The position numbers and the translations under genes were made by a program. Below are positions 6,680-33,392 of a stretch of DNA of 64,000 nucleotides, piece by piece. The stretch is taken from contig NC_081824.1 of the NCBI RefSeq assembly GCF_030867095.1, positions 140,707,433 to 140,771,432 on the forward strand. The letters are read 5' to 3'. Numbering within the stretch: position 1 is the first letter of the stretch; every line of letters begins with the position of its first letter. Under the pieces are notes generated by a model, which was given only the letters and a program-made list of their open reading frames with translations, searched no databases and had not been told where the DNA came from. Origin of the DNA: Alligator mississippiensis. Its lineage: Eukaryota; Chordata; Crocodylia; Alligatoridae.

Positions 6680-8250
6680 CTGCATAATATTATTTCAGGT
6701 ATGAGCTACTGCTCTGGGGGAGAGAAACAGCACTTAAATATTCATCGTGTTTTGGTTTACAATATATTTATGAAGTCAGGATACCTTGCACATGCTCACA
6801 GAAATCAGCATTTTAAGAGTTATAAATTATTCTGGTTGATCTCTGTTAGTAGATAAAGGTAACCATCTGTTTAGAAGCCTCCTCATACAGCACACCCCAT
6901 GATAATCTCATTACAGACTAACACATTCTCTTACACATCCAAACCAAAGCACTTCCAATGTAATAAGTGAACATTCAGTTGCCTAGGCTGGTGGCTAATA
7001 GCCTCCTTGCTTACCTTCTAAACGCTGAATGTAGTTAAAATAAATTTGGGAAGTATGCAGGCGGAAAACTTGATTGCACTCGCATCAGAGATGAGCCAAA
7101 AATGGAAGCATTCAGAGTCACTAGCATAAAATCCTAATAATGACCTAAAATAAATGTCAGCCAGAGAAAAGCACACTTTTTTTCCTGTGGTATTTTTAAA
7201 GGGGTGTCATCAATGTGTTCAGGCCTGGCATCCTACCAAACGCCTTTTAACAACAGGCTCCATGTTGGGCCAAAGAAGTTTTAAAGGATTCCTAAAATAT
7301 ATATATATATTTGAGTTAGATATAAAATTATTTATTCCTGTGAAATTTCAGGATATATTTCAGTGCATTTCCCTCTAGGTAGACATATGGGGGTTTGATA
7401 CACTGCTGTGTCACTCCAATTCTGTGCCAGTTTTAATTTTAATGGGATTATACTAACATTAAAGTAATGCACTGGTGACTCTTAGACATACAGACCTGCC
7501 TGTACTTCCCTACCAACTGAGCCATAGAGTTGTTGCATGGAAGCCTAAAAAAGTTTCTAGAAGCTCTTTAAATGGATGAGAGGCTGACAGAAGTCCTGAT
7601 TGGGGGGGCGGGAATTTGCTTCTTGAGGATTCATTAGATATTCTGAAATATCATCATTTAGGTTAGTGATGTCTCACCACCTGTATGTATCACCACCTTC
7701 ACCAAAAAGGCATGAAAAAATGCTTATATATAGTAGGTATATTGACTGGGTGGGCTTCCCACTGGCCAGAGAAGAGATATGTCATAGGTTCTGTTGTGTA
7801 CAGAAATTGCACGTTTTTATGGATAATACCATATGTTGCTTTATTAAAAAATATGATCCTTCAACAACTCTTCCTATATCATCATAAAACATACAACACT
7901 CCCGTAGAGTATATTAAACTGAGCAATTCTGTGGTTCTTCACTGGGGCTGGTGGAAGTATATTTAGTTTGCTTCGTATTGGCTGGTGAACAGAAAATGTG
8001 GGCTTGCTTAGAATAACAACAAAGTTGAGGCCGTTCATTGTGGTCGGTTCAGAATGGGACGCTTTGTAAAAGAAAATTTCAGTATATGGAAGCAAGAGGT
8101 AAAAAACATGTTGTCCATTACACTAACATAATCCAAGGTAATCTCATTTGTTTCTAGGGAGTTATTCTGTGTTGGTACAATAGTAAAATACAGCAGAATT
8201 AATGCATGCGTTATGCATTTAATGAGACAGGCTATTTGAGTTCTTTGGTA
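6680..8250. other. AT-rich spacer, no gene seen
   Basis: This is AT-rich sequence with a short (AT)n run near 7299-7312 and no recognisable coding frame or transposon terminus. Confidence 0.55.
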
Positions 8251-8254
8251 CTTT

Positions 8255-8345
8255 CTTCAGCTCTGCCAATGATTTGCTGGGTGACATTTGACACATCTCA
8301 TGATCTGTGTTTCCTGATTTTTGAAATGGGGGAAAAAGTAGCTCT
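8255..8345 (+). mobile_element. MIR/CORE-SINE fragment
   Basis: The order CTCTGCCAATGATTTGCTGG, GTGACATTTGACACATCTC, then TTTCCTGATTTTTGAAATGG follows the MIR consensus layout: CTCTGCCACTTACTAGCTG, then GTGACCTTGGGCAAG, then TTTCCTCATCTGTAAAATGG. The fragment is old and substituted throughout. Confidence 0.6.
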
Positions 8346-8629
8346 TCAATGCATGGAGGCCCAATTATCTGAAGGTATGTTAAAGCATTTTTGGGGTGCT
8401 CAGATGAAAAGCAAACTAAAAGTGCAGTAATGTTAGGGTGCATGCAGGTTTATGTTGTCGAAAGCATAAGTTCCACTTCTTAAAGATCCTTACAAATGGA
8501 ACTTGCAGAGAAGAATGGTAAACACTGCTAACCCAGCTTTGCCACATACTGTCAAGTACTTATAAACTCTATTTATAGCCACAGTTAAAGATTCAGATAC
8601 GCAAGTACTCTATTAAAAGACCACATTAA

Positions 8630-9370
8630 TGAACCCTCAGAGAAAATATCTCACAAAGCCTTTTGAGCTTGTAACTGCACAGTTGTGTAGGGCTTCTTAC
8701 TTGTTAACATCCATAAAATATAAATACTTTGTAGTAAACCCCAGCATCTTGTGGATTGTAATGACTTGCTTCAGACTAACGCAGCTAACTACCTCACCGT
8801 CAACAACTTCAAGTTATGCAATGGAGAGATACATGACTAGGACTTCACTGCTCAGTGTCATCCCTTGCCAAATGCTCACACAATAATTCGCTCCTATTTT
8901 AGAAACCTTTCTTTTTTTATTTTGAAGCAGTGTCTCACTCCTTGTGACTCATTAGGTCAATGTGAGTATAATTTCAGAGATAACAATCAGGACTATTAGT
9001 TGGGATTTGAATTGCAGCTCCAGCTCAACATACTGGCAGCAATTTAGCGAAATCTAACAGATTAAAAGCCTGTGCAGGATTTAGCCATGGAGAAATTTTT
9101 TCCTTTGACACAAGCCAACTGATAAGAGTTGTCATTTGAGAGGAAATAAATAGCAGCATTTGATTATTTTTCATTTTTATCATTGTTCTTTTCTATCTGT
9201 GGCTTTGTATTTTCCAGTTTCTCTTTTTCTCAAGATTTCACTTCATAATCTGTGACAGCAGGCCTTATTTTAATGTGTTGTGTTTTACATATGTTTGCCA
9301 CATCCGGACAATGTTTATAAAAACAGATATCAAGAATAAAATCATTCAGGAATAATACTTTGTGGCCTTC
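8630..9370. other. AT-rich spacer, no gene seen
   Basis: An 85-codon frame starts at 8629 but shows no domain or codon signature. No transposon termini are recognisable in this stretch. Confidence 0.5.
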
Positions 9371-10719: not shown

Positions 10720-12060
10720 CACAATGGCTGGTGTCAATAGAGAAAAGGTTGACATCCGCATCAGAATGTTTTACTGTTCCATCTCACCTGTTGTTTCTAG
10801 TTGTGTTTTGTGAAGGCTAGCTGTGTTATAAACACAAACTAGATAGAAATCCACTATCCACTGACAATCTACTGGAGGTGAGCAATGCTTAGCTTTTTCA
10901 GTCCTGAAAGGGTTTGGGTACTGAGTATCTTAACATCATTAAGACTGAGATGTTTTTGCATGTGCTCATTGGCAGAAATGTAAGTAATGTCTAAATTAAT
11001 AGCTAGGGTTAGCTTTAAGTTGTCTTTAGGCCTACATTTGCTATCTACACTGTAAACCTCTAAGCTTGCCTCCTGGCAGAAGCGCAGCCCTCCCCCTCAG
11101 CAGCATGCATTGAATAATTCACTTGGGTATGCAGGCCTCAAACATAGGAAGTCCACCAGCAGAAATCTTGTAATGCCTTGTTCCTGATTTCCAGCATTTC
11201 TGCACCCCACTTCCTGTCTCACCTGTCTGTAGCTAGACAAGCCTAGAAGAAGAGAGACCACTGACCAACCTATAAGGATTCCACTTTACAAATAAGAAGC
11301 ACAATGTGGATAGTGCAGGCTATGAGGTCTGTGCAGGCTGGGGAAGGCCAGCTCACTTGACTCAGGTTGGTTGAGGATGACCTCAAGGTTAATTCTGAAT
11401 ATCAGTGCAAAATGTCCTTAGGTGCCTATGGATCTTCTGTAATGAAAATTTCAACATCTAGCATATCAGCAAGTTTCTAAGATTTAATGAGAGCTGAATG
11501 GGAATTTTGAGACTTGCAAAGTTTTGGGTTTATGCACCTAAAATGATAGATGTGTGCCTAAATCCATGTACAGATTTACCTCTTATTTCTGTTGAAAGCA
11601 AATTCTGATTAGTGACTCCTTGTTTTATTTAAGGATTTGATACTTAAACAAATCTGGAAAGTGAATATGGTCCATTGTTCTATGCAAAGAACATGAAGAG
11701 AGTGTAATACACACAAGGTGCTACATAGAAAGTGATGCATTTGGCAACCTCGTCCTAATTTGGCATGTAAATTTTGCTCTTTTTATTTGGAGGTGAAAGG
11801 TCATAGGGCAAAGCGTGGGTGACAGGAAGACTTGAGGGGATTATTTGGGACAAGCAAAAGAGGAGAAGCAGTTATTTGGAAATCCTTCCTATATTTGGAA
11901 ACAACAATTCTGAGAACAAAAAGAATAGACGTAAAAGCATCCCAGATTTTTTTTTTAAATGGACAATTTTTTAAACAGCAAGCAACATAGGCCGATTTTT
12001 AAAGGTACTCAGGTACACAATATCCATTGTTAGGTAGATATCCATCCCAAGTTGACTGCC
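10720..12060. other. intergenic sequence, no gene seen
   Basis: No coding frame or transposon end is recognisable. A small imperfect palindrome lies at 10796-10843 (TCTAGTTGTGTTT paired with AAACACAAACTAGA). The phrases GTGCCTAAATCC near 11555 and CTGCCTAAATACC near 12055 are common in old amniote repeats but are too short to classify. Confidence 0.5.
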
Positions 12061-12069
12061 TAAATACCT

Positions 12070-12215
12070 TTAAAAATGACAGCTTTAATCCCTGTACCTC
12101 AGTTTTCTCTTCTGTAAAGCAGAGATAATACTTCTATACCTCACAGGCATAATGTAAAGACAGACTCATTATTTGTGAGATACTTGGCTTCTACAGTGAT
12201 GGGACCTATTGAAAA
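12070..12215 (+). mobile_element. MIR/CORE-SINE fragment
   Basis: The sequence TACCTCAGTTTTCTCTTCTG, TAAAGCAGAGATAATA, then ATACCTCACAGGCATAATG follows the MIR order TGCCTCAGTTTCCTCATCTG, TAAAATGGGGATAATA, then CTACCTCATAGGGTTGTTG. It is 3' MIR sequence on the plus strand, diverged and inactive. Confidence 0.65.
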
Positions 12216-12439
12216 GACTATACATGTAGAATTAAAGCTGTGATCTTGCTTGATGAGAAGTCACAAATCTGGTTAGGGAGCATTTTTCATGCAGGCATGC
12301 AAGCAGAGGTGTATATAAGAAATATGAAGCAAAACTTAATTAGGACGTGGTGACTCCCCAAAACTAGAAGTACAAAGACATTAAACTTGCATAAAACAGC
12401 ACTAGGAAAAGCATAGATATTTCTGAGCTAAAAGACTGG

Positions 12440-13620
12440 GAAACTGAAGTGAGCAAGGAGGTCACATCAAGAAAATAGTAGGTACTCAAAGGTATATTGC
12501 TGGGAGTTCAACAAATCTGTATACCATTGAGAAATAAATGTACTCAGAGTGGAAATGACCAATGTGGATGACCAGGGAAATACAAAGAGCAATAAAAGAA
12601 AAAAGAAGAATATATGAGACCTATAAATCAGCAGGGTCAGTGCAGCAGGAATTGGTACAGAAGCCTATAGTGAAAGAAAAATGCAAGAAAATGACCCAAA
12701 AAGCTAAGCCTGGAAAAGAAGATAGGAAAAGCTGTGAACACAATAAAAGATTTTATAAATTTGGCATATAAGAAGCAAAAGGTCAGTGAGTGAGACTGCA
12801 GTCCTCTTCTTGAGGGATGGCAAGGCTAACTTGACAGAAGAGGTGGATATTGCTGGGAAAGTGAATTACTACTTTTGCCTCAGTATTCAGCAGGGAGAGT
12901 GGGGAACATCTGCCAGAAGTCTTGATACATTTTCCAGGGGCAGAAAATGAACACTTGCTAAAAATAAAGGCTATCACAGAATGGGTAAAAATAAAGCAAA
13001 TTATTAAAGCTGTTGAAAACACAGCCTAACTCAGGAAGAGGTGAGCTATCTCCCAGAATTCAAATTCAAAAAGACATGTCAAATGGAATAAACCAGTGGG
13101 CAAATTTTTAATTCTCTACTGGAAACAATAGAGAGGAGCTAAAATAGAGACAACAATACATTGCTGTTAAATAGGGATCAATGGAGAAAAATGGGGTGGT
13201 ATGAGAAAAGATTCTAGACCTTAATATCTTAGAGGGAAAATGGGTATAGATGACAAAGCTATTTTTAACTTTATTGAACAGGAGAAAATAGGAGCTGACA
13301 GGGATAGAGGAATAAGGTGTAGCATGCCTGGACTTCAATAAGGCTTTTGATTCATGCTAGTCTTTCATGCAATAATGTAAGGCAAGAAGGCATGGGACTG
13401 ACTGTGTAAATGCTTAGAGTAGTTTTAGAGACCAGACATGATGGTAAATAGATACAGATTACTTAGAAGGAAGATGGTTAATGGAATGTCGTGCTTTTCA
13501 GTTCTGAGCCCTCTGGTAACACTATACAGCTATGACCCAGAAAAAAGAACACCAAGACAGGAGTGACCTCAAAGTGAGATGTCTGGCTGACATCAAAGAG
13601 AAGGAAGACTGATTCTCTTG
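12440..13620 (+). pseudogene. decayed LINE ORF2 (L2/L3/CR1-like), relic 1
   Basis: Translated pieces on the plus strand run in LINE order. The linker between endonuclease and reverse transcriptase lies at 12562-12771 (WMTREIQRAIKEKRRIYETY, then RFYKF). A diverged NYYFCLSIQ-like block follows near 12865, then RT motif A as CLDFNKAFD at 13326-13352, and a SVLSPLV-like motif B remnant near 13500. Stops and frameshifts separate every block. The endonuclease and 3' end are not seen. It is a dead copy of an old non-LTR element, and the exact clade among L2, L3 and CR1 cannot be settled by eye. Confidence 0.65.
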
Positions 13621-13989
13621 GAAGAAGTGGGTGTTTTTACAACAAATAACTTAAGGAATTTAACCTGGAAGAACGTGAGTTCATGAGGAGAAACTCAAAC
13701 AGTCATTATACTATCAATGCAAGACACTGATTAGGAAATATCCATGGATAATAATTGTTTCTGTCCACTATTCATGGGGTTAGATTCACAAGACAGATGC
13801 AGGTGGGAGCATTGCAATACTCTGCTGACCAGTAGCATTCAATATACTTATTAAGGGAGTCTTGGGGTCTGTACCATGCAAGTGGCAAGTCGGTGCCTAA
13901 GAAAAGTATTCACCGACATTCACAGTGGGGAACTGGCCAAGCTAGCCTGTAAGTAATGCAGAGGAGGCCTGTTCCTCTGGTCATGTAAT

Positions 13990-14600
13990 AAAAACAATCA
14001 TCAGGGAAGGACTGGGGGCCCTATTTGCTAAAGGAAGAGTGGAGGTCAAGGATGATGTAGAGAACTGAATGAATACTTTACCTTGGTTTTTAATTAGGAG
14101 CAAGAGGTAACTGTGGATATTGGTGGCATGCTATAAGGCAATAAGAAATCAGTATAGAAATCACCTTGTATGAATTGGAAGCAAAGGTTGGATTGCTTCT
14201 TTTTACAAAATGGGGGGGGGGGGGCGAGAGGGATGGAAGCGGAGGGAAGAGACTGGCAGCTAATCTCCATCCTAGAATATTGAATGACTTCATATATGGA
14301 ATACTAGATTCTTCACCGCATCTGTCAACTCTGGGATATTACCCTATGATTATAAAATGGCAAATGTAGTGCCTACTTTAAAAAAAAAGGGGGGAGGTGT
14401 ATAGGTATTTAGAATGGTATTCAGAAAATGTATAGGTATTTAGAATTTATTTTATTATAGTGATTGAGACACTGGTAGGCTTCCAAATTGCTTCCAAAGT
14501 ACAGATACTGAAGGAAAAAAATAGTTAAAGACATAGAAAGAAACATAAAATGGGCCAAAACATAACGTATCAAAAGATGACTGAATGTCAGACTGGTGAG
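13990..14600 (+). pseudogene. old L2/L3-like LINE, relic 2, segment 1 (before first hAT)
   Basis: A plus-strand translation gives a linker tail (KDDVEN ... EYFTLVF, about 14045-14095). The RT block PYDYKMANVVPTLKK follows at 14343-14390, equivalent to the usual PEDWKMANVVPIFKK. The reading then breaks off at 14600, where a hAT element begins, and LINE sequence in the next expected part of RT resumes at 16087. The segment therefore belongs to the same LINE copy as 16079-16941 and 23509-24115. Many stops and indels are present. Confidence 0.65.
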
Positions 14601-16078
14601 CAGGGATCCGGGTTTTCAATTTCCCATGAGAAAATGGAAAAAATGCAGATTTTCCCTTTTAACTGAGAAAAACACAATTTTTAATTTTAAGGGAGAAACG
14701 TGGATTTTCCACTTTTGCAAAGACCTGGGACAGCATGAAGTGGGCGGTCAGGCAGGGGGCACCATGTGCACACGTACACATGCACATGGCTGCCAGGCAG
14801 TCTGGAAAGCAGTTCCTGCAGATAAGTCTGGCAGGGGGGAGGGGGAACTAAGGCCCTCATAGAGAGGGAGACATTTAGGCAGGGTTGGGGCTGGCTGCTG
14901 TCTAGCCAGGGCTGTGCGTGGGGCCCTGGGTCAGAATGCGCAGCTGCAGGGCCCAGGTGGGGAGTGGGATGGGGCCGTAAGCGGCTCATCTGATAGGGTG
15001 AGGGGCTGGCTCTCTGCTGCTGTGTACGCTCCCAGGGAGATAGCGGGGGCACATGCCCTGCAGATGTGTGCATGGGGCAGGGGTGGGTGCAGGCTGGCTG
15101 CTGTAGTCTGAGGCTCCCCACCCTGCTGCCCTCTGCCTGGGGTCTCTGCCACCCAGCAGGTGGGACCAGAGTGGCAGGGAGAGTGGGACTGGGTAGGGAA
15201 GCTCCTTACCACTGCAAGTACCATGCTGCCCTTGCAAGGCGCCCCATGCTTGTCTGGCAGCAGCGGGGGTGGCAGCACAGAGTTGTGCCCCTCATTGCTG
15301 CCAGGTGGGGAGGGGGCACCTTGCTATGGTGGTACGGGGTCCCAGTGGTGACATGAGCTTTCCTGCCTGGCCCCACTCTGCCCTGCCACACTGGGTTTCA
15401 CCAGCTGGGCTGTGGAGGCCCCAGGGCAAGGGCAGCCCCCCTGACCCCCCACCCATACTCTCCCATGGGCTCTGCTCCAGCCATGCCACCCATAGGGGAG
15501 AGAGAGCTGGGCCCTGCACTCTGCTCCACTGCAGCACCTGCTGTCTTCCATGGGTGGCAGCAGGGCTTGGGTGCTGCTGCAGGGGGCAGGAGGCTGCAGA
15601 CCTGGGTCCTTGGCCCTGTAGCCTTGGCAGCTAGGGGTGCTCTCCAGCAGGGCTGAGGGGTGGGTGGGCTGTGGGTGGGGAGTAAGGGGCATGAGAGGGG
15701 CCCAGGGGACTGTGGGTGTAGAGTGAGGGGCACCAGCAACAATGGGGAGTGCTGTGGGTGGGGAGTGAGAGGCCTGGACCAGTGTCTTAGTGAGCTAAGG
15801 GGGCAGAGGGGGCTCTGATTTTCCATGATAAAAACCCCAAAATCAAATCCCAACATTTATAGGTATTTAGAATTTATTTTATTACCGTGATTGAGGCAGT
15901 GGTAGGCTTCCAAATTGCTTTAAAATTGTAAATATGTCAATAAAACATTGTGTTCAATTGATACCTTTATATATAGTGATGTTCCATTTTAATCATGGAT
16001 TTTTGGGGGTTTTAATCAGAGAATTTGCAATTTTTATCAGAATTTGTGATTTTTAAACAGAGAAAACCAGGATCCTTG
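14601..16078. mobile_element. hAT-type non-autonomous element with GC-rich core
   Basis: The left end is CAGGGATCCGGGTTTTC and the right end reads GAAAACCAGGATCCTTG, its inverted complement with one mismatch. The flanks are CTGGTGAG (14593-14600) and CTGATGAG (16079-16086), an 8-bp duplication with one transition, as expected for hAT elements. The subterminal regions are AT-rich, with runs of AAAAATCACAAATTC-like sequence. The core at about 14720-15810 is strongly GC-rich. Overlapping frames there of 60-150 codons on both strands have no domains and reflect composition only. The element interrupts the LINE relic precisely. Confidence 0.85.
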
Positions 16079-16941
16079 CTGATGAGTGTGTGTTCATGGT
16101 TGTGTATCATAAGATTACATATTTCTTGGATAAAAGTAATGCATTGGGTGTAATTTATCTAGCTATAAGCAAAGCTTTTGATACCATGCCTCATGAGATG
16201 TGGATAAGGAGGTACCTAGGTACTGGAGTTAGAAGTGTCCTTGGGGATTTTGCAGATGACAGTAAACTGGGGAGTATTACCAATGTGAAACATGTGGTTA
16301 TTATACAGGAAAAAGTAGATAAACTTGTGGAATGGAGGATAAGAAACAGAATGAAGTTTAACAGCATGAAATGCAAAGCCATGTACTTAGAGACCAATAA
16401 GAAGGGTGTCAGCTATATAAGACTGGCATACATAGAACTGAGCCAATGAGAAAGAGAAGGACCAGGGTATATTTATTGGCCATAGGATGAACATGAGCTA
16501 CCAGTGTGCTGGTACTATAAAAAAGGTTGTGCAGTCTTATGTTAGTAATTGGAGTATATACCATAGAGACAATGAGGTGCTAATACCATTGTACAAGGCA
16601 TTGTTAAGAACCCATCTAGAATACTGTGTGCAGTTCTGCTCACTAGTGTTCAAAGATTAATTTAAACTGGAACAAATTCAAAGAATGGTCACTAAACTTG
16701 TCAGGGGAATGGAGACTGTTTTTTATGAAAGATGATTAAAGGAGCTTGGCTTGTTTACTTTAGCAAAATAGAGATTGAGGGGGGATATGATCACTGTTTA
16801 CAACCACATTTGTGGGGTGAATATTATGAAATGCAGAGCTTTATAGGTAGAAAAATAGTACCATCATAAGATCAAATGGTTTCAAATTGTATACAGATAC
16901 ATTTAGATTAGAAGTCAGAAGACAGTTTCTAACTATTGGAG
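16079..16941 (+). pseudogene. old L2/L3-like LINE, relic 2, segment 2
   Basis: The 119-codon frame at 16090-16449 starts with a TYFLDK block and then RT motif A, GVIYLAISKAFDTMPHE, whose first Asp is replaced by Ala. Motif C, FADDSKLG (16248-16271), follows after only about 50 bases, so roughly 270 bases including motif B are deleted. Later fragments give NMSYQC, THLEYCVQFCSLV (near 16611) and RLRGDMITVYNHI, which is the usual C-terminal extension of CR1/L2-type proteins. Reading continues to 16941, where a second hAT element starts. Confidence 0.75.
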
Positions 16942-17120
16942 CAGTGATTCTCAACCAGGGTGTTGTGGCACCCTGGGGTGCTGCAAAATCCTTTGAAGGG
17001 TGCCGTGAGGTGTGAGGAAGCAAGCAAAGAGGTGCAAGCTCAGCCCTGTCCCTACCTGGTTGATCTTCCCCCCACCCCCACCTCACACTGCCCAGCCCCT
17101 CTACAAGGAGGTAAGCACGT

Positions 17121-18720
17121 TAATAGAAGAATAGAAATTTTGGGTTGGAAAGGACCTCAGGAGGTCATCTAGTCCAGCCCCCTGCTCAAACCAGGACCAT
17201 CCCCAACTAGATCATCCCAGCCAGGGCTTTGTCAAGTGGGGCCTTAGCCTCTGAGGATGGAGATTCCCCCACCTCTAGGTAACCTGTTCCAGTGTTTCAC
17301 CACCCTCCTAGAGAGAGAGTTTTTCCTAATATTCAACCTAAATTTCCCTAGATGCAACTTGAGACCACCGCTCCTTGTTCTGTGATCTGTCACCACTAAG
17401 AACAGTCCAGCTCCATCCTCTTTGGAACTGCCCTTCAGGTAGTTAAAGGTGGCTATCAAATACGTACTCTGTCTTCTTTTCTGCCAACTAAATAAGCCCA
17501 GTTCCCTCAGCCTCTCCTCAGAAGTCATGTGCCCCAACCCCCACACCACTTTCGTTGACCTCTGCTGGACTCTCTCCAACTTGCCCACATCCTTTCTATA
17601 GGGGGTGGCCCAAAACTGGACACAGCACTCCAGATGTAGCCTCACCAGTGCCAAATAGACGGGGAGTAATCACTTCCCTCACTCCGCTGGCAATGCTCAG
17701 TAAGCCGTTAGCCTTCTTCGCAAGAAGAGCACAGTGTTGGCTCATATTCGTCTTACTGTCCACTCTAACCCTCAGGTCCTTTTCTGCAGAGCTGCTGCTT
17801 AGTCAGATGGTCCCAAGCCTGTAGCGGTACATGGGATTCTTCTGTCCTAAGTGCAGGACTTTGCACTTTTCCTTGTTGAACCACATGAGATTTCTTTTGG
17901 CCCAGTCCTCCAATTTTTCAAGGTCACTCTGAATCATAGACCTACTCTCCAGTGTATCTGCTACTCTACCCAGCTTGCTGTCATCCACAAATCTGCTGAG
18001 GGTGCAATCTATCCCATCTTCAAATCATTAATAAAAATATTGAACAAAACTGGCCCCAGGACTGACCCATGGTGTACTCCACTTGATACCAGCTTCCAGC
18101 TAGACATCGAGCCATTGATTGCTACCTGTTGATCCTGACGATCCAGCCAGATTTCTGTCCAATTTACAGACCATTTATCCAGACCATACTTCCTCAGCTT
18201 GCTTGCGAGAATGTTGTGGGAGACGGTATCAAAAGCCGTGCTAAAGTCAAGGTATATTACGTCCGCTGATCTCCCTGCATTCACAGAGCCAGTCACCTTG
18301 TCATAGAAGGCAAACAGGTTGGTCAGGCATGACTTGCCCCTGGTGAATCCATGCTGAGTGTCCCTGATGACTTTATTCTTCTCTGAGTGCTTAGAAGTAG
18401 ATTTCTTGAGGACCTGCTCCATTATTTTTCAAGAGGACTGAAGCAGGGCTGACTGGTCTGTAGTTCCCTGGATTCTCCCTTTTCCCCTTTTTAAAGATGG
18501 GAGCTATATTTGCCCTTTTCCAATCATCCGGGACCTCCCCCAGTTGCCACCAGTTTTCAGAGATAATCGCCAGCAGCTCTGCCATCACATAAGCCAACTC
18601 CCTCAGCACCTTTGGATGCATTGCATCTGGCCCCATGGACTTGTACACGTCCAGCTTTTCTAAATAGTACCTAACTTGTTCTTTCACCACTGGAGGCAGC
18701 TCACATTCTGCCCAAACTGT
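17121..18720 (-). mobile_element. CR1 LINE copy A, 3' half (RT to 3' end)
   Basis: The element ends on the minus strand with the complement of AATAGAAATTTTGGGTTGG, a CR1-type 3' terminus followed by the CCTCAGGAGGTCATCTAGTC block. Inside, minus-strand frames give the RT palm and the C-terminal extension. Its 5' continuation is at 21944-23440: the minus-strand protein stops in a VTDDEEKAEVLNAF block there and resumes here at AECELPPVVKEQ. The gap is filled by plus-strand CR1 copy B. About 20 residues of the usual linker seem lost or unrecognisable at the insertion site. Confidence 0.85.
17244..17654 (-). pseudogene. CR1 copy A C-terminal region
   Basis: This 136-codon minus-strand frame contains RLHLECCVQFWA, RKDVGKLERVQQRSTKVV, LRELGLFSWQKRR and KHWNRLPRGGG, the conserved C-terminal domain found after the RT in CR1 proteins. 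The role of this domain is not firmly established; it is thought to help bind RNA or target DNA. The frame opens with MALVRLHLE, where CR1 normally has ALVRPHLE, so the true reading frame continued upstream before decay. Confidence 0.8.
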
Positions 18721-18792
18721 GCTGCCCGGTGCAGTAGTCTGGGAGCTGACCATGCCTGTGAAGAGCCATGAAACCTGCATCAGGGAGGTCAA
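18009..18792 (-). pseudogene. CR1 copy A reverse transcriptase (broken)
   Basis: The first minus-strand frame carries a fingers region with LGEVPDDWKRANIAPIFKKG and NPGNYRPVS. The second (137 codons) carries [20 protein letters not shown], motif [15 protein letters not shown], a diverged motif [12 protein letters not shown], and FINDLKMG. A frameshift follows, and the catalytic box appears just downstream at about 17975-17990 as FVDDSKLG, where most CR1 have FADD. Stops and frameshifts make it non-functional. It would have catalysed target-primed reverse transcription of the CR1 RNA. The 18721-18792 end of the first frame already lies in copy B sequence. Confidence 0.8.
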
Positions 18793-18961
18793 CTTGCAGC
18801 TTCAGAGCTGGTGTTACAAGGCGGGCTTCGGCTTTGTGGACTACAACCCCTACTTCCGAACAAGAGACATACTCGGGTGGGATGGGCTTCATCTCGCCCA
18901 CAAAGGTAAGTGTATGTTCTCTTTCAGGTTAGCTGATCTCCTCCAGTGGGCTTTAAACTAG
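18722..18961 (+). pseudogene. CR1 copy B ORF1 C-terminal fragment (esterase-like)
   Basis: The fragment reads REVNLQLQSWCYKAGFGFVD, then GWDGLHLAHKGKCMFSFRLA and ends at the stop after WALN. The DGLHL motif is the last catalytic block (Asp-x-x-His) of the SGNH/GDSL esterase-like domain found in CR1 ORF1, and here both Asp and His are kept. The block with GTND lies upstream and is missing because of 5' truncation. Compare copy D at 29466-29831, which keeps GTND but loses this Asp and His. Confidence 0.75.
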
Positions 18962-19095
18962 GTTCGTCGGGGGAAGGAGAGGACCCATGGAACACTGAAC
19001 CATGAGATACCCACAAGATCAGCCCCGGTAAGTATCAAAGAATCTATTAGACAGCAGTATAAGGGGATTCCAGGGGTAGCCAGCAGGGAAATTAA

Positions 19096-19917
19096 GTGTA
19101 TATATACAATGCAAGGAGCATGGGAAACAAGCAGGAGGATCTAGAACTCTTGCTTGTGAGCAATAACTTTGACCTAGTAGGACTAACTGAAACCTGGTGG
19201 GACTCTACTCATGACTGGGTGGTAGGAATAGAAGGCTATAGGTTGTATAGGAGAGATAGAGGAGGGAAAAGGGAGGGGGTGTTGCTCTCTATGTCAAAGA
19301 ACAGTCACTACACATCTTCCCTAATCAGATTGGGATCGGAGGATGAACAAGCGGAGACTCCGTGGATTAGGATCCAAGGGGGCCAGGGGGAAAGGGACCT
19401 GGTGGTGGGGGTCTACTACAGGCCTCCACACCAGGAGGATGAGGTAGACGGGAAATTTTCCAGGCAGCTCTCAGAGATGGTGCAGTCTAGAGATATGGTA
19501 GTCATGGGGGACCTTAACTGCCCAGACATATGATGGGAAGAACAGTCAGCTACATCTAACTGCTCTTGCAGGTTCTTAACCCGTATTCAGGACCTCCACC
19601 TAACACAGGAAGTAAGGAGTCCCACCAGGGGTAATGCCTTGCTTGACTTGGTGTTGGCCACAGGGGATGACCTGGTGGGGGACCTGGAGATTCCAGGCAA
19701 CTTATGGGACAGCAATCACCAAATAATAAAATTCACTATCCAGAGAAGGGCAGGCACTATACCTAGCAGGACACAGGTGCTAAACTTTAAAAAGGCTGAC
19801 TTTAATAGTCTCAGGGGATTGGTTAGCATGGTACTAGGAACCAAGAGCCTAGATGCTTTGGAGGGTCCAGGATGGGTGGTCATTTCTCAAGGATACCACT
19901 CTTTGGGTTCAGATTGA
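19096..19917 (+). pseudogene. CR1 copy B endonuclease (APE-type, broken)
   Basis: The 145-codon frame begins near the domain start (NARSMG, Asn5) and includes TETWWD (catalytic Glu32), VGVYYRPP and GDLNCPDI (138-145). It then meets a TGA where Trp is usual. Reading resumes in frame at 19639 with the LDLVLATGDDL block and the final catalytic motif, which is SNHQ rather than SDHQ. The domain nicks target DNA to prime reverse transcription. The stop and the Asp-to-Asn change would each abolish it. Confidence 0.82.
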
Positions 19918-20230
19918 GACAATCCCATGGCAGAGGAAAGGGGCCAAAGGGGCCAGGAAGCTCCTTTGGCTAACCAGGGTCATCCAGGATACCTTAAGGG
20001 CAAAAAAAGAAGCATACAGGAAGTGGAAGCAGGGGGTAGCTAGCAAGGAGGAGTACACTTCCTTGGCCCGCACCGGCAGGGAGTTAGTCAGGAAGGCCAA
20101 GGCAGCTCTAGAACTCAGGCTAGTGGCAGGGATTAAGGCAAATAAAAAGTCCTTCTTTAGGTACGTTGGGAGCAAAAAGAGGGTGCAGAGTAGCATAGGA
20201 CCCATACAGAACAGGTTTAATGACAGATAG
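19853..20230 (+). pseudogene. CR1 copy B linker between endonuclease and RT
   Basis: This 125-codon frame overlaps the endonuclease remnant in a different phase, so a frameshift lies near 19880. It contains RKLLWLTRVIQDTLRAKKEA, RKWKQGVASKEEY and NKKSFFRYVGSKKR, the basic linker seen in all CR1/L2 ORF2 proteins. The frame ends in a stop at 20228-20230, just overlapping the RT frame. Confidence 0.75.
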
Positions 20231-21095
20231 CAGGGACAAGGCAGAGCTCTTCAATGAGTTTTTTGCCTCTGTCTTCTTAAATAGGAATCTAGACAAACCC
20301 TCAATATACATCACGGACACCAACAAGGGGAACATCAGTCGACCAACAGTCAGTGCCGACATGGTACAAGGACACTTGAAGAGACTGGAAGTGTTCAAAT
20401 CACTGGGACTGGAGGGACTCCACCTATGGGTAATGGAGGAATTAGCAAGAGTCATAGCTGAACCACTAGCAAGGTTATATGAGCACTCATGGTGCTTGGG
20501 TCAGGTCCTGGGGGACTGGAAGAGGGCCAATGTCATCCCAAACTTTAAGAAGGGGAGGAAGGAGGATCCAGGGAACTATAGACCAGTCAGCCTTACCTCT
20601 ATCCCTGGGGAAATCCTTGAAAAAATTATTAAGGAACACATCTGTGGGAGCCTGCTGGATAATGTGATGCAGAGGGGTAACCAACATGGGTTTATAGCAA
20701 GCAGGTCCTGCCTGACTAACCTAGTTTCTTTTTATGACAAGGCTACCAAATGTTTAGATGCAGGAGTCGTGGTGGATGTTATCTATCTGGACGTAAAGAA
20801 GGCCTTTGACAAGGTATCCCATACCATCCTTATAAATAAACTGAGGAGATTTGCCTTGGATGATTATACGGTAGACTGGGTAGCAAACTGGCTCAAGGGT
20901 TGCACTCAGAAAGTGGTGGTGGATGGGTCGGTGTCAACCTGGAAAGATGTATGCAGTGGAGTCCCTCAGGGCTCAGTTCTGAGGCCAGTGCTGTTCAACA
21001 TCTTCATCAGTGATCTGGACGAAGGGGTGGGAAGCACCCTGTCCAAATTTGCGGATGACACAAAAATATGGGGTGAAGCTAAGAGGAGGAACTAG
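20220..21095 (+). pseudogene. CR1 copy B reverse transcriptase core
   Basis: The 291-codon frame holds FNEFFASVF (11-19), [16 protein letters not shown] (97-112), [13 protein letters not shown] (118-130), QHGF (155-158), motif [10 protein letters not shown] (189-197), motif [10 protein letters not shown] (246-254) and motif C FADD (277-280). All three catalytic aspartates are present. A stop follows at residue 292, within the region that normally continues into the thumb. The start shown is simply the first Met after the upstream stop, not a true initiation site. It is the most complete RT in the window. Confidence 0.88.
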
Positions 21096-21279
21096 ATCCA
21101 GGCTGACCTCGACAGGTTGGGGGAGTAGGCAGAAAGCAACAGGATGCAATGCAATAAGAACAAGTGCAAAGTGATGCATCTTCAGAGAAAGAACTGCCAT
21201 CATACCTATAGGCTGGGGGGGTGACCTTCTCAGCACCACAGAGGCAAAAAGAGATCTTGGAGTCACTGTTGACTCCAGG

Positions 21280-21843
21280 ATGAACATGAGTCATCAATGT
21301 GATGAAGGAGTTGGCAGAGCCAATCACACCTTGTCGTGCATCCGTAGGTGCTTCACAAACAGATCCAGGGAGGTGATTCTCCCTCTCTACACAGCACTGG
21401 TCAGGCTGCAGCTGGAGTACTGTGTCCAGTTCTGGACACCGCAGTTCAAGCGGGATGTGGACAACCTGGAAAGGGTCCAAAGAAGAGCCACTAGTCTGAT
21501 TGGAGGCCTGCAGGAAAGGCCCTACAAGGAAAGGCTAAGAGACCTTAACCTCTTCAGCCTCTCCAAGAGAAGGCTGAGAGGGGACCTTGTGGTGGCATAC
21601 AAATTCATAAGGGGAGAGCAACATGAAGTAGGCGACGATCTGTTTACCAGAGCACCCCCTGGAACAACAAGAAATAATGGCCATAAGCTAATGGAGAGTA
21701 GGTTTAGACTGGATGTTAGAAAAAAGTTCTTCATGGTCAGAGTTGCCAGGATCTGGAATGGGCTTCCAAGGGAGGTGGTGCTCACCCCATCCTTGGGGGT
21801 TTTCAAGAGGAGACTGGACAGGCACCTGGCTGGAATCACATGA
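21280..21843 (+). pseudogene. CR1 copy B C-terminal domain
   Basis: This 187-codon frame runs from NMSHQCDEGV to the natural-looking stop after HLAGIT. It includes LQLEYCVQFWTP, NLERVQRRATSLIGGL, LFSLSKRRLRGDLVVAYKFI, NNGHKLMESRFRLDVRKKFF and RIWNGLPREVV. The 190 bp between it and the RT frame translate in other phases with stops (QADLDRLGE, MQCNKNKCKVMHL), so the protein was once continuous. Confidence 0.85.
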
Positions 21844-21943
21844 TCCCAGGTTTGGTGACCCTTTTCTTGCCTGCCAGGAGCAGGGGGTCAGACTAGATGG
21901 CCCACTGAGGTCCCTTCCGACCCTAGAATCTATGACTCTATAA

Positions 21944-23440
21944 GGTAAAAAAGGCATTGAGGACTTCAGCCTTTTCCTCATCATCTGTCACTAGGTTGCC
22001 TCCCCCATTCAGTAAGGGACCCATGCTTTACCTGATCTTCCTGTTACTGATATACTTGTAGAAACTCTTCTTGTTACCTATCACATCCCTTGCTAGTTGC
22101 AACTTCAAATATGCTTTGGTCTTCCTGACTTCATTCCTGCATGCCCAAGCAGTACTCTGATACTCCTCCCTAGTTGCTTGTCCAAGTTTATACTTCTTAT
22201 AAATTTCCTTTTTGTGATTTAGATTACTGAAGAGTTCCCGACTAAGCCAAACTGGTCTTCTTCCACACTTGCTAGTCTTCCTGCATATAGGTATGGTTTG
22301 TCCCTGCACTCTCAGTAAGACTTCTTTAAAGTACAGCCAGCTCTCCCAGAGTCCTCTCCCCCTCAGACTGGCTTCCCAGGGGTCCTGCCCATGAGTTCCC
22401 TGAGTGAGTCAAAGTCTGCTTTTCTGAAGTTCAGGGTCCTTATTTTGCTGCTCTCCTTCCTTCCTTCCCTCAGGATCCTGAACTCGATCATCTCATGGTT
22501 ACTGCTGCCCAAGTTGCTATCCACTTCTACATTCCCCACCAATTCCTCCATGTTTGTGAGCAGCAGGTCAAGAAGATCATGGCACCCAGTTGGCCACTCC
22601 AGAACATGCACCAGGCAGTTTTCCCCAGTGCTCTCCAAAATCTTCCTAGATTACCTGCACACTGCTGTATTGCCCTCCCAGCAGATGTCAGAGTGATTGA
22701 AGTCCCCCATGAGAACCAGGGTCTGTGATCAGGAAACTTCAGCTAGTTGTCTGAAGAAAGCCTCATCTACCACATCCTTCTGGTCTGGTGGTCCATAGCA
22801 GATACTCACCAGAGCATCACCCTTGTTGCTCTCCCTTCTGACCTTAACCCAGAGTCTTTCAGTAGGTCTATCTCCAGTTTCATACTCGAGGTCAGAGTAG
22901 TTATACAATTCTTCTACATATAGTGCAACTCCTCCTCCTCTTCTCCCCTGCCTGTCCTTCCTCAAGTTTGTACCCATCCATGACAGTACTCCAGTCATGC
23001 TAGCTACCCCACCAAGTCTCTGTTATTCTAATCCCATCATAGTTTCTTGACTGTGCAAGGTCTTCCAATGCTTCCTGCTTGCTACCTAGGCTGTGTGCAT
23101 TTGTGTACAGATACCTGAGGTAACTAGCTGATTGCCCTATATTCTCAGGAAGGATGAGAAGGCCTCCCTTGTTGCCCCTCTTCCTTGTACTTCCTCCCAC
23201 TTTCCTCAGAGCTTTGGTCTGCGTCTTGTGGCAAACCTAGTTTAAAGCCCTCTTCACTAGATTAGTGAGCTCGCTTTCAAAGATGCTGTTCCGTCTCTTC
23301 ATCAGGTGGATCCCATCTCTTCCTAGCAGTCCTTCTTGGAACAACATACCATGGTCAAAGAAGCCAAATCCCTGCTGGCAGCACCATCTGTGCAGTCATG
23401 CATTGATCTCCAGGATACACCTAAAGTAGTTTTAGAAATG
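21944..23440 (-). mobile_element. CR1 LINE copy A, 5' half (ORF1 tail, endonuclease, linker)
   Basis: On the minus strand this runs from an ORF1 tail (QQGFGFFDHGMLFQEGLLGR, DGIHLMKRRNSIF, about 23230-23390) through the endonuclease to the linker, ending in VTDDEEKAEVLNAF at about 21950-21990. It joins logically to 18720 across the inserted copy B. The left border at about 23440 is where the hAT right end begins. The 3' end of the composite element is at 17121. Confidence 0.85.
22028..23200 (-). pseudogene. CR1 copy A endonuclease and linker (broken)
   Basis: Minus-strand frames in order are: YLYTNAHSLGSKQEALEDLA with TETWWGS (23000-23200), RRGGGVALYVEE with CYGPPDQKD (22729-22998), LDLLLTNMEELVG with SSNHEMIEFRI (22363-22638), and the linker WLSRELFSNLNHKKEIYKKY with NKKSFYKYISN (22028-22309). 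Frame changes and stops separate them. The final catalytic Asp-His reads Asn-His, the same change as in copy B. Confidence 0.8.
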
Positions 23441-23508
23441 GGGTCCCACTCAATTCACAAAAGCGATGGAGGGGTGATTCAAGTCCAATAAATGATTGAG
23501 AACCACTC

Positions 23509-24115
23509 TATCAGAAGAATGAAACTTTTAGAATAGTCTTCCAATCAAAGTGGTGGGCCAAAAATCCTAAATCTCTTGACGATTAAACTGGGTAAGCTTT
23601 ATGGAAGGAATGGCATGATAGGACAGGGTATTTTGGCATGCTGTTCAGCATGCCTGATGTTGAGTCATGTTTGCAGTCCCCAGGTTGGGGTAGAAAAGTG
23701 GCTCTTGTTATATAAAAGGCAGTTGATAATCCCATACCTCAGGGCCTTTGCTGGTTGCCAATTGAGGCCAGCAAATAATTGTTTTTCTCTCAGTAATACT
23801 GGTTTCTATCTTTGTTTTGCATTGATTTTAATTTCATCTTTGGCATTGGGACACTGGCCCTAGCTAAGACTAGGAATTTTTTACAAGTGCACTGATAAAT
23901 CTACTGATATTTAACTGCCCCCCCCCCCTTCTACCCCCAGAGATTCCTCCCTAGAAGATCATGCTCTTCCACTCAAAGTCATACTGGTCATCAATTCTGG
24001 GGCCAGAAAATAATTTTTTCCTACGTCAGATTGGTACAGACCATAATGGGTTTTGCTGCCTTTTGTAGCATAGGGCATGGTCCTTTTCCTCAGATATTCT
24101 GAGCATCTACTAATC
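23509..24115 (+). mobile_element. old L2/L3-like LINE, relic 2, segment 3 and 3' UTR
   Basis: Immediately after the hAT the plus strand gives NSLPIKVVGQKS (near 23535) and ALWKEWHDRTGYFGM (near 23595), the last blocks of an L2/L3 ORF2, directly continuing the FLTIG-like block that ends at 16941. A 3' UTR-like tail follows: AAAATAATTTTTTCCTACG, GGGTTTTGCTGCCTTTTG and AGCATAGGGCATGG. This arrangement is familiar from L3-type elements of amniotes. The end near 24115 is approximate. Confidence 0.65.
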
Positions 24116-24273
24116 AACTATCTTCCTGTTGCTGCTATGAACAGGGCTTTGGCAGTGCCTTTGTTTTCCATGTTTTACCTATGAAATGGTATGAGGTGTT
24201 CACATCTATGAACCCTCTTTCGAGGGGGCCATAAACATTTTGTTCAAAAGTCAAAAAGGGACCAGTCCTCCAT

Positions 24274-24463: not shown

Positions 24464-24854
24464 CAGGGCTGTCCAACTGGCATCCTGTTCCAGCTGCTGC
24501 TGCAGCCAGGGTCTCAAGGCTCCTCCTCTCTCCCTCAACTTTCATTTCCTGCTCTTGTAGGGGTGGGGCAATGCAGCCCATGGCACCAGAAGAGCCTGTG
24601 GCATGGTACAGCAAGGAAGCAGAGATAGGGGCCACCCACTTGCATGGTGCAATAGCTGCCTGTGCATGCAGTGCAGCTGTGGAGGAGGGAGTGGTCACCC
24701 GTGTGCACAGTGCAGAGGCACTGCTCCACATACATGGTGCAGCAGGATGGGCCATGTACTAGTACAGGCCAAGGATCCATGGCTTGTACTAGTGCATCGC
24801 CACTGGTACAGCCTGGTGTGAAGCCCCAAGCCACTTAGAGGATTGACAGACCTG
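24464..24854. mobile_element. probable hAT-like element with GC-rich core
   Basis: The left end CAGGGCTGTCCAACTGGC resembles a widespread hAT terminus, and the right end GATTGACAGACCTG is its imperfect inverse. The outside 8-mers (ATAGAAAG and GCATAAAA) do not match convincingly, so the duplication is unproven. The interior is richer in GC and carries repeated CATGGTGCA-like words. ORFs of 60-105 codons on both strands have no domains. Confidence 0.5.
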
Positions 24855-26404: not shown

Positions 26405-26653
26405 AAATGAAGACTTGCTAGTTCTGTGCAAAACTGTCATACAGAATCCTTATGACTCTGGAATCCCCTTAGGAAGTTAATTCATAGATTCATAGATGCT
26501 AGGGTCAGAAGGGACCTCAACAGATCATCAAGTCTGACCCCCTTCCTAGGCAGGGAAGTGCTGGGGTCAGATGACCCCAGCCAGATGCCTATCCAGCCTT
26601 CTCTTAAAGACCCCCCAGGTAGGGAAGAGTGCCACCTCCTTTGGAACCCCATT

Positions 26654-27775
26654 TCAAATTTTGGCCACCCTTACTGTGAATAAGTTTTTCCTGATATCTA
26701 GTGTAAATCTGCTTTCTGTCAGTTTGTGACCATTGTTCCTTGTTACCCCAAGAAGCGCCCTGGTGAACACAGCATCTCCGATCCCTTGCTGCATCCCCCT
26801 AACGAATTTGTAGGCGGCCACGAGATCACCTCTCAACCTTCTCTTGCAGAGGCTGAAGAGGTCCAGGTCCCTCAGTCTCTCCTCATAGGGCTTGGCCTGT
26901 AAACCCTTAACCATACGAGTGGCCCTTCTCTGGACCCTCTCAAGTCTATCAACATCCTTCTTGAAGTACGGCACCCAAAACTGGACGCAGTACTCCAACT
27001 GCGGTCTGACCAATGCCGCATAGGGGGGAAGTATCACCTCCTTGGCTCTATTTGTCGTGCATCTGCTGATGCATGATAAAGTGTGGTTAACTTTGCTGAT
27101 GATTTTGTCACACTGACAACTCATGTTCATCTTGGAGTCCGCTATGACTCCGAGATCCCTTTTTGCATCCATGCTGCTGAAAGGGTCACTTACCAACCAA
27201 TAGATGTGCTGGATATTTTTGCACCCTAGGTGCAGCACTCTGTACTTGTCCTTGTTGTACTGCATCCTAATGTGTACTGCCCACTTTTCTAATATGTCCA
27301 GATCTGCCTGCAATCGTTCCCTACCCTCCAGAGTGTGCACTTCACCCCACAATTTAGTATCGTCTGCAAACTTGGACAGAGCACACTTCCCACCCACATC
27401 CAAGTCACTGATGCAGATATTGAAGAGTACAGGTCCAAGGACCGAACTGTGCAGGATCCCACTACCCACATCCTTCCAGAGTGATACCAACCCGTCTACT
27501 AGCACTCTCTGGGTGTGACCGCTAAGCCAATTTGCCACCCACCAGACCATGTATACATCTATGTCACAGCCTCTTAATTTATTTATGAGAATGGGATGAG
27601 ATCCCATATCAAAGACCTTGCTAAAATCCAAGAAAACAACATCCACCTCTACTCCTGCATCTAAGCATTTTGTGACCCTGTCACAAACAAAACCAGATTG
27701 GTCAGGCATGATCTGTCTGCTATGAATCAGTGCTGGTTTCCCTCCTGCATTATTTTTCCCACTGGACTCCCACAA
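26654..27775 (-). pseudogene. CR1 copy D reverse transcriptase and C-terminal domain
   Basis: This 373-codon minus-strand frame is the longest ORF in the window. It has motif A FLDFSKVFD (48-56), a ruined motif B (SGILHSSVL where SGVPQGSVL is usual, about 104-112) and an intact FADD (136-139). Next come ERVQRRATRMVKGL, LFSLCKRRLRGDLVAAYKFV, then RFTLDIRKNLFTVRVAKI at the end. QHGF is degraded to QSGF. The damage to motif B should inactivate it. The upstream fingers are in another phase at 27727-27975. Confidence 0.88.
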
Positions 27776-27975
27776 ATAACATCCTTCATAATCTTTTCAA
27801 AGACCTTTTCAAGGATGGAGGTGAGAATGACTGGCCTATAATTACTTGAATCCTCCTTCCTCCCCTTTTTGAAAATAGGGACCACATCAGCCCTTTTCCA
27901 GTCCTCCGGGACCTGACCCGAGCGCCATGAGCACTCAAACAGCCATGCCAGTGGTTCTGCTATGACACCGGCCAA
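27727..27975 (-). pseudogene. CR1 copy D RT fingers fragment
   Basis: This 82-codon frame has [36 protein letters not shown] and NYRPVILTSILEKVFEKI, the fingers region of a CR1 RT. It overlaps the next frame by about 50 bases in a different phase, showing a frameshift before QHGF. Confidence 0.85.
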
Positions 27976-28285
27976 TTCCTTCAGTACAGATGCAGCTCAT
28001 CTGGGCCTGCTGACTTGAACACATCCAGTCCACCCAAGTGACTCTGCACCAAGTCAGCGTCAACAGTTGGTGGGCTGGTGTCCCTCTGATGTCCATCTAA
28101 GAACCCATTAGGAGATTTATCTTGACCCGTGTTCAGGAACACCGAGGCAAAAAACTAATCGAATAGCACAGCCTTGTCCCCCCTGTCTGTCACTAATTGC
28201 TCCTCCTTATTCAGTAGGGGTCCTATGCTGCCCTGTGCCTTCCTTTTACTCCCTACATACCTAAAAAAAAGACTTTTTGTTGTCT

Positions 28286-29460
28286 TTAATTTGTGTTGCC
28301 AGCCTCAGCTTTGCAGTTGCTTTCTAACTGCCTCCCTGCAAGTGCGGGCCAAATAGGTATACTCCTCCTTGGTAGCTCCCCCCGGCTTCCACCGCCTATA
28401 TGCCTTCTGTTTTGCGCCCTTAGGCTCCCCTGGATTTCCCTGTTTAGCCAAGGAAGTTTTTTGGCTCCTTTCACCCTTTCCCCTTGTACTGGGATAGTCT
28501 CCCTCTGCCCCCAAAAGATCACTTCCTTTAGAAACAACCACCCTTCCTGGACTCCCATCTCACCAATACTCTTATCCTGCACTGTGTCATTGACTAGACT
28601 CCTATGTACACTGAAGTTAGCCTTCCTAAAGTCAAGCACTTCCACCCTACTGGTTATCTTACCCAGCCTATGCCGTATGGTGAATTCGATTGATTGGTGG
28701 TCACTGTCTCCAAGGTGACCACGAACGTGCAGCTCCCTTATCAGGTCCTCCCCCATAGCCAACACCAAGTCCAGTAAGACATTCCCCCTAGTGGGACCGT
28801 ATACCTCCTGCATTTGGTGAAGGTCCTGGCTGCAGGTTAAGAACCTACGTGGATGGTTGGATTTGGCTGACTGCTCCTCCCAGTGGATGTCAGGGTAGTT
28901 TAGGTCCCCTATGACAACCATATTCCTAGACTGTACAGCCTCTGAGAGCTGCCTCAAGAATTCCAAGTCTAGCTTTTTCCTTTGGTGTGGTGGTCTGTAG
29001 CACACTGCCACCAAGTCCCTTTCCCCTCTACCTCCATGTATCTTAGCCCACAATGCCTCAACTTTCTCCTCCTCTGATCCCATTTTGATTAGAGTAGATG
29101 TATAATGATCCTTTACATAGAGAGCAACCCCACCCCCTTTCCTCCCTACTCTGTCCCTTCTGTACAACCTGTAGCCCTCAAATCCCAGTCATGAGTGGGG
29201 TCCTACCAGGTTTCTGTTAGCCCCACTAAACTGAAGTTGTTATCTGCAAGCAGAAGTGTAAGTTCTTCCTGCTTGTTCCCCATGCTCTTAGCATTAGTAT
29301 AAAGGCACTTGAGCTCTACAAATGGTGCCTTTGGTACTCCCCCCCCCCCCCGGCTCTGATGCCCAAAGGGCCCCTTGGTACTTACCTGGGGTGTACTGCT
29401 GCATGTCTCACAGTTTGTAAGTTCTAGACTCTCTCCATCTCCTGCCTCCCCATCCCCCAT
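28286..29460 (-). pseudogene. CR1 copy D endonuclease and linker
   Basis: The 85-codon frame 29203-29460 ends at TETW followed by a TAG in place of the second Trp. The 293-codon frame 28286-29167 then continues with GGGVALYVKD, VAVCYRPPHQ, GDLNYPDIHWEE, LDLVLAMGEDL, the intact final motif GDSDHQSIEF, and linker KLPWLNREIQGSLRAQNRRH. A frameshift lies between the two. Apart from that nonsense and frameshift, the catalytic Asn, Glu, Asp-Asn and Asp-His positions are all retained, unlike copies A and B. Confidence 0.87.
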
Positions 29461-29465
29461 CGTAC

Positions 29466-29831
29466 TTAGTGTAAAGCCTGATGTAGGAGGTCAGCCAACC
29501 TGTAAGAAAAGAGACTCTTACCTTTTGCAGAGAGATAAACCCCATTGCATCCCAGGAGGTCCCTTGCATGGAAGTGTGGATCATGGTCCAGGAAGCCAAA
29601 ACCCACACAATGGCACCAACTCTGGAGCCGCGGGTTGACTTCCCTGAAACAGGTGACATGATGGCTACTGCAACCGCTGACTGGGAGGATTAATGAGAAG
29701 AGCACCTGCTCCCCCATCTTCCTAAGCCTGGTCCCCAGAGCCCTGTAGTCACTCATGATACAGTCTGGACTACTCAAGGCTGCATCATTTGTTCCCACAT
29801 GGATGAGGACCATGTTACAAAGTCTAACCAC
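29466..29831 (-). pseudogene. CR1 copy D ORF1 C-terminal esterase-like fragment
   Basis: The 121-codon minus-strand frame carries VLIHVGTNDAA, the GTND block III of SGNH/GDSL hydrolases, then REVNPRLQSW, VGFGFLDHDPHF and GCNGVYLSAKGKSLFSYRLA. The last block should read DGVHL; here it is NGVYL, so both the Asp and the His of the catalytic pair are gone. CR1 ORF1 esterase function is poorly understood. The start is truncated. Confidence 0.8.
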
Positions 29832-33300: not shown

Positions 33301-33392
33301 ATGATTCATAGATTCATGGATGTTAGGGTCGGAAGGGACCTCAATAGATCATCGAGTCCGACCCCCTGCATAAGCAGGAAAGAGTGCTGGGT

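Follow-up and report, generated by a model that had tools for sequence, protein, structure and literature searches.

A nested stack of LINE, hAT and CR1 insertions in the alligator genome

A 64,000-nucleotide stretch of the Alligator mississippiensis genome, lying at 140.7 Mb on contig C1 and referred to here as the window, carries pieces of a LINE, two hAT-like DNA transposons and two CR1 retrotransposons that alternate along some 12 kb of DNA. This arrangement raises the question of whether the pieces belong to one stack of elements inserted into each other and, if so, how many insertions took place and in which order. Dead mobile elements make up this locus, stacked one inside another by jumps spread over a long period, and we consider it nearly certain that the stack is a fossil transposon-in-transposon nest in which an old LINE holds hAT2, hAT2 holds CR1 A, and CR1 A holds CR1 B, with hAT1 lying separately in the LINE. 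The joins between pieces, the uninterrupted relatives, the element boundaries and a ladder of ages carry this explanation, and the relatives that support the joins are other copies in the same 2.35-Gb, 195-contig genome. The initial annotation of this locus as a four-layer nest of LINE, hAT, CR1 and CR1 thus identified a real structure, with boundaries that are corrected below. It had counted four transposition events; the tally is five insertions, nested at most four deep. The features are as follows.

12739–13351, plus strand: remains of what is very likely another LINE, older and separate, with a linker block and an LDFNKAFD motif that are both repeated downstream
13973–14600, plus strand: 5′ piece of the old, apparently CR1-type LINE (nhmmer profile positions 2413–2995, E 1.8e-55; collinear with relative L012 at 3410–4004)
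14425–14493, plus strand: 69-bp fragment from the interior of the hAT1 family, within the LINE 5′ piece (14431–14493 identical to 15858–15920 at 59/63 positions)
14593–14600, no strand: left copy of the hAT1 target duplication, CTGGTGAG, 8 bp (7/8 matches to 16079–16086)
14601–16078, plus strand: hAT1, a hAT-like DNA transposon with no transposase-sized ORF (27 family copies, 8-bp family duplications)
16079–16086, no strand: right copy of the hAT1 target duplication, CTGATGAG, 8 bp (7/8 against the left copy)
16079–16941, plus strand: middle piece of the old LINE, reverse transcriptase region (profile 3005–3096, E 1.1e-13, and 3296 to about 4000, E 2e-145)
16942–17124, plus strand: left arm of hAT2 (39 other scored genome places; 20 copies aligned)
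17125–18764, minus strand: 3′ portion of CR1 A (follows the same order as CR1 B in tblastn; 17120–17123 is where several related copies start)
18765–21942, plus strand: CR1 B, 3178 bp, 5′-truncated at 18765, reading frames broken (9/10 fetched relatives continue upstream)
21943–23421, minus strand: 5′ portion of CR1 A, truncated at about 23421, stopping where hAT2 resumes
23422–23508, plus strand: right arm of hAT2 (20 copies aligned)
23509–24201, plus strand: 3′ piece of the old LINE (profile 3998–4622, E 5.7e-83)

The outer layer was assessed with a LINE profile built from 20 fetched genomic loci, seeded with L012 and with the window left out. Four matched pieces (13973–14597, 16106–16198, 16212 to about 16936, and 23509–24201) are successive and abut on this profile. 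On L012 itself, window segments 13975–14594, 16105–16195, 16214–16936 and 23522–24078 match 3410–4004, 4016–4105, 4310–5008 and 5015–5545, so that the pieces are collinear without overlap, and arithmetic on these coordinates makes the LINE joins at both hATs agree within about 15 nt. The third profile match runs past its edge into hAT2, and the first 27 bases after hAT1 (16079–16105) lie outside the profile match. Because the pieces follow one another in order and without overlap on both references, a single LINE copy spans 13973 to at least 24201. The claim that LINE blocks resume in the right order at each join therefore holds from 13973 onward; of the span proposed initially, 12440 to 24115, the collinear part stands, its start at 12440 does not, and its end moves outward to at least 24201. 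At 13973 the copy is either 5′-truncated or undetectable further upstream, and many LINE relatives end about 130 profile positions beyond the end of the 3′ piece. When 16079–16941 was used as a genome query, its relatives, among them the 20 loci of the profile, were 65–77% identical, save for one 50-nt piece at 90%. The LINE is probably CR1-like, since CR1 A and CR1 B give matches to its profile as well. At 16198/16212 this copy lacks about 200 profile positions, and the gap, which measures roughly 160–380 nt, is seen against L012, L013, L014, L026 and L028; besides its insertions, the LINE copy has therefore undergone an internal deletion. Just 3′ of the LINE, at 24723–24824, lies an imperfect palindrome of about 100 bp (about 72%).

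Very likely, the stretch from 12440 to 13970 is left over from another, older LINE, and the outer LINE does not begin there. The LINE profile gives a weak match there (13251–13376 at positions 2984–3100, E 0.55) that overlaps the profile positions of 16106–16198, a profile search of 12000–13972 alone listed no match, and the DNA evidence for a LINE origin is weak. At the protein level, we aligned a 120-residue ORF2 linker query, built from 8 of 10 CR1 A relatives, with 12440–13140 in a frameshift-aware manner and obtained a score of 71 over residues 2–77, whereas none of 150 shuffles exceeded 50 (the maximum) and an unrelated stretch scored 23. The same query matched the downstream LINE at 13991–14199 (residues 13–88) with a score of 53, slightly above the shuffles (maximum 50). 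It is this repetition that points to two LINEs, because one element has one linker block and here the block is found twice. An LDFNKAFD motif near 13319–13351 reappears as AISKAFD near 16160, although the motif alone scores no better than shuffles. Alignment of the CR1 B reverse transcriptase protein with 13000–13700 recovered no more than a motif of 11 residues, and its score of 31, under the maximum of 54 from 120 shuffles, is no evidence alone; the positive control, 16080–16780, scored 91. A LINE beginning at 12440 is thus abandoned: 12440–13970 overlaps the downstream piece on the consensus, in linker block and in profile positions, which is the kind of overlap that the initial annotation had itself named as contrary to a single LINE.

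The hAT reported at 14601–16078 with a target duplication was confirmed, its flanks CTGGTGAG and CTGATGAG agreeing at 7/8 positions. Its inverted ends read CAGGGATCCGGG and CAAGGATCCTGG (3′ end reverse-complemented), and its longest ORF encodes 152 aa. With a flank-bearing query, the alignment ended no more than 8 nt from 14601 in 17/27 family copies, from 16078 in 14/27 and from both in 9/27, and it ran more than 11 nt beyond an end in 5/27. In the 15 of 27 copies that retain both ends, the flanking 8-mers match at a mean of 7.07/8 positions, versus 1.13–3.60 at offsets of 1–6 either way. Thus, hAT1 displays both the 8-bp target duplication and the short terminal inverted repeats of the hAT superfamily. 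Comparable non-autonomous hAT elements include Charlie-like and MITE-sized ones. The GC-rich interior of hAT1 (15058–15436) matches relatives on both strands, suggesting a large self-complementary core in this family.

The second hAT had been placed at 16942–23508. These outer ends, which enclose 6.57 kb, proved sound; the element itself amounts to only 270 bp in the window and the rest is CR1. Across all 20 hAT2 copies the flanking 8-mers match at a mean of 5.10/8 positions, compared with 1.5–2.8 at offsets of +1 to +6, so insertions of this family do produce 8-bp duplications; the ends of the copy in the window form short terminal inverted repeats. The copy in the window has a weak duplication (5/8) and a last base unlike that of most of the family. 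In the alignment, CR1 A sits within the GTAATATATAAATTAG stretch of the hAT2 family, its insertion having deleted or duplicated a few bases at most.

CR1 A and CR1 B are collinear along ORF2 by tblastn, and the CR1 B protein contains blocks that we take to be reverse transcriptase-like. At the CR1 B site, each of the 10 fetched CR1 A relatives continues uninterrupted, without CR1 B, as do L008 and L013. Between GAAGA and AGGT (or variants of these) the relatives carry three bases, CTG in 7/10 and TGG, CTA and CCG in one each; the window lacks these three bases of CR1 A, and CR1 B stands in their place. This places the break in CR1 A at 18764/21943, which upholds the proposal that the minus-strand CR1 A is split by a plus-strand CR1 B and shifts the split from 18720/21944. 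Upstream of 18765, 9 of the 10 fetched CR1 B relatives continue with CR1 sequence where the window does not (L074 and L077 depart further up), so CR1 B is 5′-truncated at 18765; one relative, L072, is itself cut near 18775. Both copies combine 5′ truncation with a kept 3′ end, as relatives' matches repeatedly end at 17120–17123 for CR1 A and near 21941 for CR1 B. We also observed that CR1 A (at 23421) and CR1 B (at 18765) are cut at element positions that differ by about 10 bp, with L072 cut near 18775 as well, and these near-identical cut points could reflect chance or a reverse-transcriptase stop site. The window holds two more CR1 copies, both on the minus strand, at 26477–29660 and 33305–33957. 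The former is a CR1 B relative of much greater divergence, with a distance of 0.36 to the B consensus in the 5′ part compared. A 5′ end common to three CR1 copies in the window was considered, but the copy whose end lies near 29660 was taken out of this grouping because it extends upstream of the truncation point of CR1 B. Elsewhere in the genome, an opposite-orientation match to bases 3–69 of the CR1 B query (G000:C2:23528995-23529061) adjoins another CR1 copy, an arrangement that could have arisen by inversion at the 5′ end of a LINE.

Two other explanations of the whole locus were weighed against the nest. The LINE fragments could be leftovers of several copies that mimic one interrupted element. 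This is very likely true of 12440–13970, which overlaps the downstream piece; from 13973 on, however, both the profile and L012 show the four pieces in their proper order, and for the locus as a whole we consider such mimicry highly improbable. Likewise, the distance between the outer ends of hAT2 would suit a large composite hAT2 that had the CR1s as cargo and transposed together with them. Against this, 19 of the 20 hAT2 relatives that were fetched are short and have no interruption where CR1 A lies in the window, with both arms at normal spacing and no CR1 between them (L051 and L067 through short, weak right-arm matches), and the twentieth, L068, is the only one that lacks a recognisable right arm. 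We therefore give a composite hAT2 almost no credence, and the uninterrupted relatives bear out the claim that a minus-strand CR1 A lies inside the second hAT.

For the nest, the following series of events is proposed, in which the transposition mechanisms would be those known from the behaviour of the respective families and neither hAT1 nor hAT2 would have had a transposase of its own. A CR1-type LINE copy inserted first and then decayed. The 270-bp hAT2 and the 1.48-kb hAT1 then entered it at two sites, presumably by cut-and-paste transposition, with 8-bp target duplications. Next, a 5′-truncated CR1 A entered the AT-rich middle of hAT2 on the minus strand, presumably by target-primed reverse transcription, leaving no clear duplication. 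Finally, CR1 A itself received a younger 5′-truncated CR1 B in plus orientation, which cost 3 bp and made no duplication.

Nesting alone orders only LINE, hAT2, CR1 A and CR1 B, in that succession. As a measure of age, we used the Kimura distance to the family majority, with CG/CA/TG positions excluded and 95% bootstrap intervals; since each consensus was made from the relatives closest to the window, the distances may come out too low. The LINE lies at 0.363 (0.324–0.405; all sites, 0.374), hAT2 at 0.161 (0.101–0.236; all sites, 0.155), hAT1 at 0.147 (0.120–0.176; all sites, 0.185), CR1 A at 0.089 (0.064–0.115; all sites, 0.113) and CR1 B at 0.039 (0.023–0.061; all sites, 0.067). The consensus samples comprised 18/20 hAT2 copies (L064 and L068 out), 13/27 hAT1 copies, and 10 relatives each for CR1 A and CR1 B, out of 39 and 40 other places, respectively. 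The divergence order of LINE, hAT2, CR1 A and CR1 B agrees with the nesting, with a slight overlap between the intervals of hAT2 and CR1 A. By nesting, hAT1 is datable only as later than the LINE and has no rank relative to hAT2 or the inner layers. Whole-element distances do not separate hAT1 from hAT2, and the hAT1 distance is not uniform, being 0.185 for the whole element, 0.109 for its head and 0.078 for its tail. The duplications of hAT1 carry fewer mismatches (14/120) than those of hAT2 (28/120, from a count that omits the five copies with three or fewer matches, L055, L057, L059, L064 and L068; Fisher p 0.026), which suggests, as a lean only, that hAT1 inserted later than hAT2. The internally ordered chronology claimed at the outset is accordingly retained for four elements, with hAT1 unplaced. 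The same annotation had drawn from the locus the relative ages of two CR1 lineages, which goes too far: because the activity periods of lineages may overlap, a single nested pair orders two CR1 copies and not two CR1 lineages.

A smaller feature was overlooked initially, together with the loss of about 200 LINE positions described above. A repeat search in the window found that 14425–14507 recurs at 15852–15934 with 86% identity, the latter being a hAT1-family part. A second copy of a 16-nt motif stands at about 14399–14414, beside the 69-bp fragment (14425–14493). At this place about 45 nt of LINE sequence are missing, as read by eye, and the LINE profile holds other sequence. Comparison of the fragment with the 20 LINE loci, 8 of which span the place, gave only a 36-nt match (E 0.03) and a 19-nt match (E 0.55). 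A genome search, scored for the best 40 of 1052 candidates, returned 39 other places at 90–99% identity, none of which matches outside 14423–14508, and the fetched matches belonged to the hAT1 family in 6/6 cases.

One explanation, to which we assign about an even chance, is that a break arose in the LINE roughly 110 bp 5′ of hAT1 and that its repair copied in the 69 bp, together with the second copy of the 16-nt motif, from a hAT1-family interior, in which case copying began at a short stretch common to the LINE and hAT1. Short-range template switching is a described process (PMC7954356). Alternatively, and with a somewhat lower probability, the fragment could be the remnant of an independent hAT1-family insertion. 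Such a remnant would be consistent with the 32 of 39 other scored places, within the best 40 of 1052 candidates, that match at 97–99%; however, the fragment is internal to the family and includes neither transposon end, and the LINE sequence there is replaced, not merely split. The fragment lacks three changes found only in the adjacent hAT1 copy, as expected of a remnant, so it would have been copied early from that neighbour, or from another copy, or be such a remnant. If copy repair is the true course of events, transposon activity left a templated scar in a neighbouring element, and patching of this kind could blur consensus-based dating.

The locus offers a clean, worked-through case of concordance between nesting order and sequence clocks, and it can be used to test repeat annotation software. 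Its hAT1 and hAT2 resemble known non-autonomous hAT elements in their 8-bp duplications and short inverted ends, with no ORF of more than 152 aa in hAT1. Similarly, CR1 A and CR1 B resemble amniote CR1 LINEs in their collinear ORF2, 5′ truncation and the absence of a visible target duplication. By itself the locus does not date CR1 lineages, which genome-wide nested counts already do (PMC4316615). That Transposition-in-Transposition (TinT) study reports 6,752 to 9,100 nested CR1 per genome in four crocodilian genomes and, as here, uses nested CR1 to order activity (PMC4316615). Stacks of this sort are ordinary in vertebrate genomes. Because thousands of nested CR1 per crocodilian genome entered that work, this locus is a well-resolved ordinary example (PMC4316615). 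Compared with the TinT study, it concerns one locus and includes two hAT layers as well, and so adds an example to those of a kind already known (PMC4316615).
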